Shown piece by piece: positions 1,118-3,700 of a DNA stretch of 64,000 nt (positions are counted from its first letter, which is position 1; every line of letters begins with the position of its first letter). Location of the stretch: the NCBI GenBank assembly GCA_022241785.1, contig JAKOMP010000019.1, positions 1 through 64,000 on the forward strand, read 5' to 3'. The notes beneath the pieces are model-generated. The model was given only the letters and a program-made list of their open reading frames with translations, was not told the origin of the DNA and made no database searches. Position numbers and translations under genes: made by a program. Source of the stretch: Cyanocohniella sp. LLY (GTDB lineage Bacteria; Cyanobacteriota; Cyanobacteriia; Cyanobacteriales; Nostocaceae).

Positions 1118-3700
1118 ATGTGGCAATCAAGCAGTATAAAAATCACCAACAATCATCAAAATTCATTAAATTTTTTGAGTTTAACGAAATGTTTGACCAG
1201 AAACTTTCTCTATGAAGTAGACCTTCTAAGAATTGCTGCCAGCTTGAAGCAGGAGCAAAAACAGAAAAGGACACTAGGACAGTTTTTAACTCCTGCTCCC
1301 GTAGCAGAATTAATGACGGGAATGTTTAATAAACTTAATCTTTCTCAAATATCCTTAATTGATGCAGGAGCAGGATCTGGGTCATTACTTGCAGCCTTTG
1401 TGGCTAAACTTTGTACTCAGCAGCAACGTCCAGACAATTTAGAAATTGTTGCTTATGAAATTGATCCTTTCCTAATTAAATATTTGCATCAAACATTAGA
1501 ATTATGTGCAAAAGAATGTCAAAGAGTAGGTATTTCTTTAAATTACGAAATTCGAGAAAAAGACTTTATTGAGGATGCTGTCAGGCTTCTTCAGCCTAGT
1601 TTGTTTGATCATTCTGACAATTTAAGATTTACACACGCTATTATTAATCCCCCATATTTAAAAATTAATGCTCATTCTCAGGTTCGTACTTTGTTACGTT
1701 CTCTGGGTTTAGAAACCAGCAATCTCTATTCAGGTTTTATAGCTGCTACATCTCAACTTCTCCAATCAGGGGGGGAGCTTGTAGCTATTTCGCCACGTAG
1801 TTTTTGTAATGGGCCATATTTTAAGGATTTCCGAAAAATGTTTTTGGCAATGATGGCTTTAGAAAAGATACATCTTTTTGAATCTCGACAAGAAAGTTTT
1901 AGTGATGATGAGGTTTTGCAGGAGACAATCATTATTCATGCTACAAAACAAAAACAGAAATTTGACACCGTACTCATCACAACAAGTAGGAGTACTGAAG
2001 ATGATTTTATTATGTCTAATAACTTGGCTTATGGGGAGGTAGTCCACTCCAACGACTCGCAACAATTCATTCGCATTATTCCAGATACATTAAGTCAGCA
2101 GGTAGTTCAACAAATAGCAAATTTTACTTGCACATTAAAAGACATCGGCTTAACAGTATCAACGGGACGTGTTGTAGATTTTCGCGTAAAAGAATATCTG
2201 CGTTTAAACCTAGAAAAAGACAGTCTTCCTTTAATTTATCCAGTAAATTTATTTAAAGGATATGTAGAATATCCTCAAACAACGAGGAAATCTCAAGCCT
2301 TAGTATATACAGAAAAAACCGCTTCACTTCTAGTACCGAATGAACATTATGTTTTGACTAAACGCTTCTCTCCAAAAGAGGAAAAAAAACGAGTGGTAGC
2401 TGCTGTATATAATGCTAACCAAATGTGTTATCCCTGGGTAGGTTTTGAAAATCATCTGAATTATTTTCACCAGGAAGGAAAAGGACTTAATCTTACCCTA
2501 GCACGCGGTCTTGCTGCCTATCTTAACTCAACCCTCATCGATACATTTTTTCGATTATTTAATGGTCATACTCAAGTTAATGCAACTGATTTACAAAATC
2601 TAAAATACCCTAAAATAGAACAACTTATATCCCTGGGAGGACGAATTGGAGAAAATTTTCCATCACAGAGGGAAATTGATGAACTTATGGAAGAGGAATT
2701 ACTGAGTATGACAAATCAGTCGGAAAACAATTTTTTAATAATCAAAACTCGTATTGATGAAGCACTGCAAATATTAGTTGAACTTGAGCTTCCCAAGGCA
2801 CAACTCAATGAATGTTCAGCATTGACCCTTCTGGCTTTACTTGCTTTGAAGCCCACTGATTCATGGAAAACTGCTGCATCTCCGTTGATGGGAATCACAC
2901 CAATGATGGAATTTATGGCACAGTACTATGGCAAAACATATAAACCGAATACTCGTGAAACTGTTCGTCGCCAAACAATCCATCAATTCTTAGACGCGAC
3001 TTTAGTTATTGCCAATCCTGATGTTCCTGAACGTCCTATTAATAGTCCAAAGACAGTATATCAGATTGAAGAAAGTGCGCTGGAATTACTACGCACTTAT
3101 GGAACTAATGAGTGGAAAAAGAGCCTTCGCACTTATCTTTCTTCAGTTGAAAGTTTGAAAAAACAATATGCTCAAGAGCGCGAACTATTACGTATTCCTA
3201 TAATAGTTGAAGGAGAGTTAAAAACTTTATCACCAGGTGGACAGAATATTCTGATTGAAAAGATTATTAAGGAGTTTGCACAACGGTTTACACCTGGAGG
3301 AAAACTGATTTATGTTGGTGATACTGATGAAAAATTTGCGTATTTTAATGAAATCGCATTAAAAAATTTAGGTGTTACTATCAATTCTCATGGTAAAATG
3401 CCTGATGTGATTATCCATCACATAAACAATGATTGGCTAGTCTTAATTGAAGCTGTCACTTCTCATGGCCCAATTAATCCTAAGAGAAAGAAAGAACTTG
3501 CAACTCTCTTTGCTAATACAAAAATTCCCCTGGTAATGGTAACTACATTTCTGAGCCGTAAAGCTATGGTTGAGTATTTGGCAGAAGTGGCGTGGGAAAC
3601 AGATGTCTGGGTTGCGGAAGATGCTACCCACCTGATTCATTTTAATGGTGAGTATTTGTTACAGGCTTATAAGGTAGATAAAAATTCTGACTCAGAATAA
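1118..3700 (+). CDS. Fused N6-adenine methyltransferase / BsuBI-PstI-type restriction endonuclease
   Basis: This single 860-residue protein appears to hold both halves of a restriction-modification system. The N-terminal half is a class I N6-adenine methyltransferase: a GQFLTP lead-in, the AdoMet motif DAGAGSGS near residues 82-89, and the catalytic motif NPPY near 177-180. From about residue 545 it resembles the helical N-domain of BsuBI/PstI endonucleases. From about 700 to the end it carries the nuclease domain (VEGELKTLSPGGQN, GDTDEK, then PDV near 762 and IEAVTSHGPINPKRK near 778), which fits a PD-(D/E)XK-type centre. BsuBI and PstI recognise CTGCAG and are normally separate M and R genes, so a CTGCAG specificity is only an inference. 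The start codon is uncertain because no clear ribosome site precedes 1118. It stands alone, without a specificity subunit or controller gene nearby. Confidence 0.85.
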   Translation: MWQSSSIKITNNHQNSLNFLSLTKCLTRNFLYEVDLLRIAASLKQEQKQKRTLGQFLTPAPVAELMTGMFNKLNLSQISLIDAGAGSGSLLAAFVAKLCTQQQRPDNLEIVAYEIDPFLIKYLHQTLELCAKECQRVGISLNYEIREKDFIEDAVRLLQPSLFDHSDNLRFTHAIINPPYLKINAHSQVRTLLRSLGLETSNLYSGFIAATSQLLQSGGELVAISPRSFCNGPYFKDFRKMFLAMMALEKIHLFESRQESFSDDEVLQETIIIHATKQKQKFDTVLITTSRSTEDDFIMSNNLAYGEVVHSNDSQQFIRIIPDTLSQQVVQQIANFTCTLKDIGLTVSTGRVVDFRVKEYLRLNLEKDSLPLIYPVNLFKGYVEYPQTTRKSQALVYTEKTASLLVPNEHYVLTKRFSPKEEKKRVVAAVYNANQMCYPWVGFENHLNYFHQEGKGLNLTLARGLAAYLNSTLIDTFFRLFNGHTQVNATDLQNLKYPKIEQLISLGGRIGENFPSQREIDELMEEELLSMTNQSENNFLIIKTRIDEALQILVELELPKAQLNECSALTLLALLALKPTDSWKTAASPLMGITPMMEFMAQYYGKTYKPNTRETVRRQTIHQFLDATLVIANPDVPERPINSPKTVYQIEESALELLRTYGTNEWKKSLRTYLSSVESLKKQYAQERELLRIPIIVEGELKTLSPGGQNILIEKIIKEFAQRFTPGGKLIYVGDTDEKFAYFNEIALKNLGVTINSHGKMPDVIIHHINNDWLVLIEAVTSHGPINPKRKKELATLFANTKIPLVMVTTFLSRKAMVEYLAEVAWETDVWVAEDATHLIHFNGEYLLQAYKVDKNSDSE

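Follow-up and report, generated by a model that had tools for sequence, protein, structure and literature searches.

Restriction-modification systems of the BsuBI/PstI type are Type IIP systems, in which the methyltransferase (M) and the restriction endonuclease (R) are separate proteins (PstI, BsuBI and split plasmid systems). A stretch of 64,000 nucleotides from Cyanocohniella sp. LLY (hereafter the window) raises the question of whether both activities can naturally reside in one 860-residue chain and, if so, how such an enzyme would spare its host. Based on comparative sequence analysis, we consider it likely that this gene codes for a naturally fused enzyme of Type IIC (single-chain), which derives from a CTGCAG-specific BsuBI/PstI-type Type IIP M-R pair and which would both methylate and cut CTGCAG.

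A single open frame for two predicted activities

The gene consists of one open frame of 860 codons, which starts with ATG and has no internal stops (Table 1). The open reading frame, the Pfam domains and an alignment with the endonuclease SdaI all agree with the original prediction that an NPPY-containing methyltransferase and a BsuBI/PstI endonuclease are joined in this frame. Moreover, the PADLOC-DB profile PDLC03359 (840 positions) spans residues 29-851 of the protein, while separate M and R profiles also match the respective halves. No second relative of the protein was detected in its own 6.78 Mb genome. Since a separate homologous methyltransferase gene is absent from the assembly, one protein must do both jobs, as had been anticipated. 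An endonuclease and a methyltransferase in the same polypeptide are Type IIC by definition (PMC4081073) and, judged by its uninterrupted frame, which is common to several species, the gene would belong to this class. The Type IIP definition, which demands separate proteins, does not fit a joined frame without a second homologue in the genome. A promoter scan gave no score above those of shuffled sequences, and no conserved gene neighbourhood was found around the homologues among the loci compared. The window itself starts (positions 1-190) within a repeat-like stretch (ttcgcgtagcgtgtcgctttgcga) of a kind that is scattered in cyanobacterial genomes.

Table 1 Features of the joined gene, with positions in the window
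Feature	Residues	Position	Strand	Basis
Single-chain M-R gene	860 aa plus stop	1118..3700	+	ORF, fused orthologues, PADLOC PDLC03359
Predicted gamma-class N6-adenine methyltransferase part, M.TaqI/M.BseCI-like	about 30-516	1205..2665	+	PADLOC, Pfam, Foldseek
AdoMet motif I, DAGAGSG	82-88	1361..1381	+	Conservation in fused proteins
Catalytic motif NPPY	177-180	1646..1657	+	Invariant in 16 fused proteins
Junction	517-538	2666..2731	+	AlphaFold; comparison with M end and R start of split systems
Internal ATG where split endonucleases start	Met531	2708..2710	+	Alignment of junction rows
BsuBI_PstI_RE_N (helix-turn-helix) domain	544-681	2747..3160	+	Pfam PF17728, E 1.4e-51
Presumed DNA-reading helix PNTRETVRRQTIHQFL	610-625	2945..2992	+	Comparison with relatives; role by analogy with SdaI
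BsuBI_PstI_RE catalytic domain	698-845	3209..3652	+	Pfam PF06616, E 2.4e-54; 2ixs match
Candidate catalytic lysine	Lys739	3332..3334	+	Invariant in all aligned homologues; SdaI Lys208
PD of PD-(D/E)XK	Pro762-Asp763	3401..3406	+	Invariant; SdaI Pro232-Asp233
Second acidic catalytic residue	Glu778	3449..3451	+	Invariant; SdaI Glu248

The N-terminal part is matched by the PADLOC profile PDLC03227 (residues 33-531) and by the Pfam families N6_Mtase (residues 47-182, E 1.2e-5) and Eco57I methylase (residues 154-257, E 2.8e-9). The AdoMet motif, of which D82, G84, A85, G86 and G88 are unchanged across 16 fused proteins, precedes NPPY, which is the order of the gamma class, and a Foldseek search with the AlphaFold model retrieved M.BseCI, CamA and M.TaqI for this module, in agreement with an M.TaqI-like fold. 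Going by the extent of the modelled fold, the methyltransferase part appears to possess its own C-terminal target-recognition region. The model of the whole protein has a mean pLDDT of 73.5 and a pTM of 0.52, and the relative placement of its two modules is not reliable. The modules are linked via two helices (residues 517-529 and 539-555) and a short loop (residues 531-537) with a pLDDT below 50.

Relatives of the joined gene

A survey of the phylum revealed a PF06616 match in 41 of the 386 genomes sampled. Joined genes occur in two cyanobacterial clades (more than 20 genomes) and on viral or prophage contigs, and in both clades M and R share one frame through the junction. Clade A (L032/L060, which are apparently one locus, L055-L058, L061-L065 and the present gene) shows 63-77% identity to this gene in M and 71-87% in R, and the corresponding values for clade B (L033, L035-L042) are 44-48% and 48-51%. 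In L039, L057 and L065, the frame stops early within the R part. The viral and prophage joined genes (L098-L101, L104, L153 and L158, some of which are near duplicates) are found amid many split ones, and six or more viral contigs carry a joined frame. A contig search with the 860-residue protein as sole query returned one relative, from Planktothrix rubescens. Within clade A, purifying selection on both halves is evident from dN/dS ratios of 0.12-0.23 in M and 0.06-0.15 in R. The search for other fused cases was thus successful, and the idea that the fused form is exceptional finds no support: joined forms exist in more than 20 cyanobacterial loci and on viral contigs, and PADLOC-DB contains a full-length profile. 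With its wide distribution and an existing profile, the joined form is of a known kind, and we regard the gene as ordinary in kind and its recurrence as mildly interesting.

Plasmids, an E. coli prophage and cyanobacterial genomes carry split relatives, all in the order M then R, and most of these show a 4-base ATGA or GTGA overlap, so that a single indel would join both genes. In the R tree as well as in the M tree, viral rows included, parsimony counts four changes between fused and split states, a count that would suggest four separate changes and does not amount to proof. In both trees, the viral joined group L098/L101/L104 is placed within split systems, and this placement has good support; it is therefore well supported by the sequence comparison that genes were joined more than once, or split again later, in the history of the family. 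For a smaller set of rows, the AU test did not reject a single fused clade for M (p 0.34), and for R the outcome was borderline, with p 0.059 for all rows and 0.14 without long branches.

The endonuclease half

The two endonuclease domains were recognised far above the Pfam cut-off of 27 bits (PF17728, 174.5 bits; PF06616, 183.4 bits), which confirms the expected assignment of the C-terminal part to the BsuBI/PstI family. SdaI (CCTGCAGG, PDB 2ixs) aligns with residues 544-851 (E 4.5e-65) and is also the Foldseek match for the endonuclease module. It shares the two-domain architecture and the active-site residues with the C-terminal half and differs in being a stand-alone endonuclease with an 8-base site and another reading helix. 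In SdaI, the winged helix of the N domain reportedly does the recognition, and the C domain is said to harbour a variant PD-(D/E)XK site. By analogy, we take residues 610-625 to be the DNA-reading helix. Both fused clades and most split relatives have nearly the same helix (PNTRETVRRQT-HQF), which differs in SdaI. An altered specificity of the fused form, which had been suggested, is disfavoured because the helix is alike in joined and split relatives; in addition, CTGCAG itself is depleted in the genome.

Concerning catalysis, the expectation of an intact active site held for the PD, the glutamate and the family lysine (Lys739), all of which are conserved in the alignment with SdaI, but not for the lysine at the canonical ExK position, which is Val780 in this protein. 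Together with the decayed endonuclease fragments in other genomes of the family, this substitution could mean that the methyltransferase half is active and the nuclease half no longer functional, the protein being in effect a solitary methyltransferase. We consider this unlikely. No aligned family member has a lysine at this position, SdaI included, and the missing residue is therefore a family trait rather than a sign of decay. Moreover, the residues invariant with SdaI persist, and R is more constrained than M.

The junction

The sequence context of the junction invites an explanation with two products, the full-length chain and a free endonuclease that is translated from the internal ATG. 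A methionine occupies the old endonuclease start in 10 of 11 clade A rows, in all 8 clade B rows and in L098, L100 and L104, i.e. in nearly all fused genes; in the present gene, its ATG is followed by A, thereby preserving the ATGA overlap signature, and a Shine-Dalgarno-like GAGGAA lies 9 bases upstream. However, the GAGGAA of this gene is not conserved in its fused homologues, the methionine is missing from L056 and L101, and the residues neighbouring Met531 are conserved too. Met531 is therefore explained by protein constraint or plain descent and, given the unconserved Shine-Dalgarno-like sequence, internal initiation receives low weight; a second product is improbable. It is equally doubtful that CTGCAG systems became fused several times because the fusion is advantageous, and that some free endonuclease from the internal start provides a built-in timer, with methylation first and cutting later, for which no control protein is needed. 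The methionine is likely a scar of the fusion at the former start codon, as would be expected after a small indel upstream of the overlap.

A single chain with a methyltransferase of the gamma class, for which Foldseek also gave a weak match to the IIG enzyme BpuSI, might also be Type IIG-like, with one recognition domain serving both activities and an altered cut position. This is very unlikely because the endonuclease part has its own helix-turn-helix domain and is complete relative to SdaI; by Pfam, the SdaI match and Foldseek, the recognition domains of M and R appear to be separate. Furthermore, the nuclease follows the methyltransferase in this protein, while the nuclease of most Type IIC enzymes is N-terminal (PMC4081073). 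Finally, a single indel in the 4-base overlap of split relatives would be enough to mimic a fusion, but a frameshift or assembly error that joined adjacent genes is refuted by the comparative data and is next to impossible: the joined frame with its junction of near-constant length recurs in about 20 cyanobacterial loci besides this one and in at least six viral contigs, and purifying selection acts on M as well as on R, so that the gene is neither due to chance nor to base calling, contrary to a concern about the original prediction.

Probable target site and avoidance of CTGCAG

The whole 6.78 Mb genome contains 15 CTGCAG sites vs about 1,619 expected from a Markov model, which was derived from a 424 kb sample of the same genome (GC 40.8%), while CAGCTG, a palindrome of equal composition, is present 1,065 times. 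The site is thus depleted, yet family members that lack the gene avoid CTGCAG too, two of them (G042 and G078) to the same degree as the present genome, and raw depletion was for this reason rejected as proof of activity. The near-absence of the site in these two genomes may be due to past enzymes, to other enzymes or to another cause. GCATGC, TGCGCA, GAGCTC and GTGCAC are equally rare in the Cyanocohniella genome. Strong avoidance of GCATGC, TGCGCA, GAGCTC, CTGCAG, GTGCAC and TTCGAA was seen across the genome G000 and its relatives, for which the same causes may be considered.

The comparison of carriers and non-carriers within the family is more specific. The median number of CTGCAG sites per Mb is 2.9 in 13 genomes with an intact gene, including one (G199) in which the endonuclease is split and has a C5 methyltransferase as its neighbour, vs 10.4 in 18 genomes without it (one-sided p 0.0013; genus means, p 0.0025; kinship roughly controlled). 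Seven control palindromes showed no such contrast (p 0.10-0.92). Outside the family, the genome G099 carries the clade A joined gene L056 and has 801 CTGCAG sites, which may reflect a recent arrival or a changed specificity of L056. In a congeneric genome, G336, which has a split system, there are 74 sites. CTGCAG is cut by AplI, a Type II endonuclease of the cyanobacterium Arthrospira platensis NIES-39 (PMC5741684); AplI resembles the present enzyme in host phylum and probably in site, and differs in being encoded by a separate endonuclease gene. All in all, CTGCAG is likely to be the recognition site.

Proposed mechanism

The single-chain gene would have arisen when the M and R genes of a tandem BsuBI/PstI-type pair were joined in frame, each half retaining its own recognition module. 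We infer that the adenine of CTGCAG is the target of methylation by the N-terminal half, and the C-terminal half, with its own helix-turn-helix domain and PD-(D/E)XK fold, would cut the unmethylated site. The methyltransferase would act as a monomer, while cutting would need two chains paired on the palindrome; for M-R fusions derived from IIP enzymes, pairing is expected to involve the endonuclease part (PMC3850674). If so, a newly made protein would methylate before it is able to cut, and self-protection probably rests on this timing. It is plausible that the fusion affects how the host protects itself, as had been predicted. The engineered R-M fusion RM.Eco29kI, which was made from overlapping genes, is active, having kept 80% of the methylation with a threefold decrease in cutting (PMC3039593).

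Comparison with known systems

The BsuBI/PstI Type IIP systems have PF17728 and PF06616, the class of methyltransferase, the order M then R in split relatives and probably the CTGCAG site in common with the joined protein. Like the present gene, RM.Eco29kI unites overlapping IIP genes in one bifunctional chain, but it was made in the laboratory, has the order R then M and a GIY-YIG nuclease fold, and recognises a different site; its authors name BsuBI among the likely candidates for natural fusions (PMC3039593). A literature search, which reached few subscription papers, found no publication on a natural BsuBI/PstI fusion. The joined gene would be a natural case of what RM.Eco29kI suggested, a palindromic-site system made single-chain with a recognition module for each half. 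Because split, overlapping and joined versions coexist, the taming of a self-endangering nuclease by a tethered methyltransferase can be tested with close homologues. Eco57I, MmeI, BpuSI and BtgZI also combine endonuclease and methyltransferase in one protein (PMC4081073), but in these enzymes one recognition module is common to both activities, and cleavage occurs at a distance from the site. BtgZI has the methyltransferase first, as here, but of the alpha class; unlike in ordinary IIG enzymes, the nuclease is C-terminal here and each half appears to have a recognition module.

PDLC03359 models the whole joined protein, with the viral-contig gene L101 as best scorer here (1795 bits), whereas the cyanobacterial proteins reach 866-889 bits and form separate clades. 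The profile is labelled 'Type II methyltransferase' only. This affects annotation, and systems found via PDLC03359 may be miscounted as lacking a nuclease.

Other members of the family

Open frames of 158-177 aa in L034 (4971-5504), L054 (4995-5471) and L059 (4936-5415; R oriented + in all three) encode the BsuBI/PstI catalytic domain without the helix-turn-helix domain or a methyltransferase. They are probably remnants, yet still open. L054, L059 and L066 adjoin the same ParA-like gene. In L046, L047, L052 and L053, the endonuclease is located directly downstream of a C5-cytosine (Dcm-like) methyltransferase and, judged by this arrangement, has switched its methyltransferase partner; the R of L046/L047 is 60% identical to that of the present gene and thus nearer than clade B. 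AplI presumably also has an adjacent C5-cytosine methyltransferase. An E. coli prophage record (Escherichia phage PPwrbA_EC3734, L079, 601-3086) contains a further M-R pair of this family, which is arranged in tandem and lacks an annotation. The methyltransferase half alone was detected with 41-47% identity in the viral contigs L103, L105-L107, L110-L115, L117, L118, L120 and L140, where it possibly serves as protection from CTGCAG restriction.
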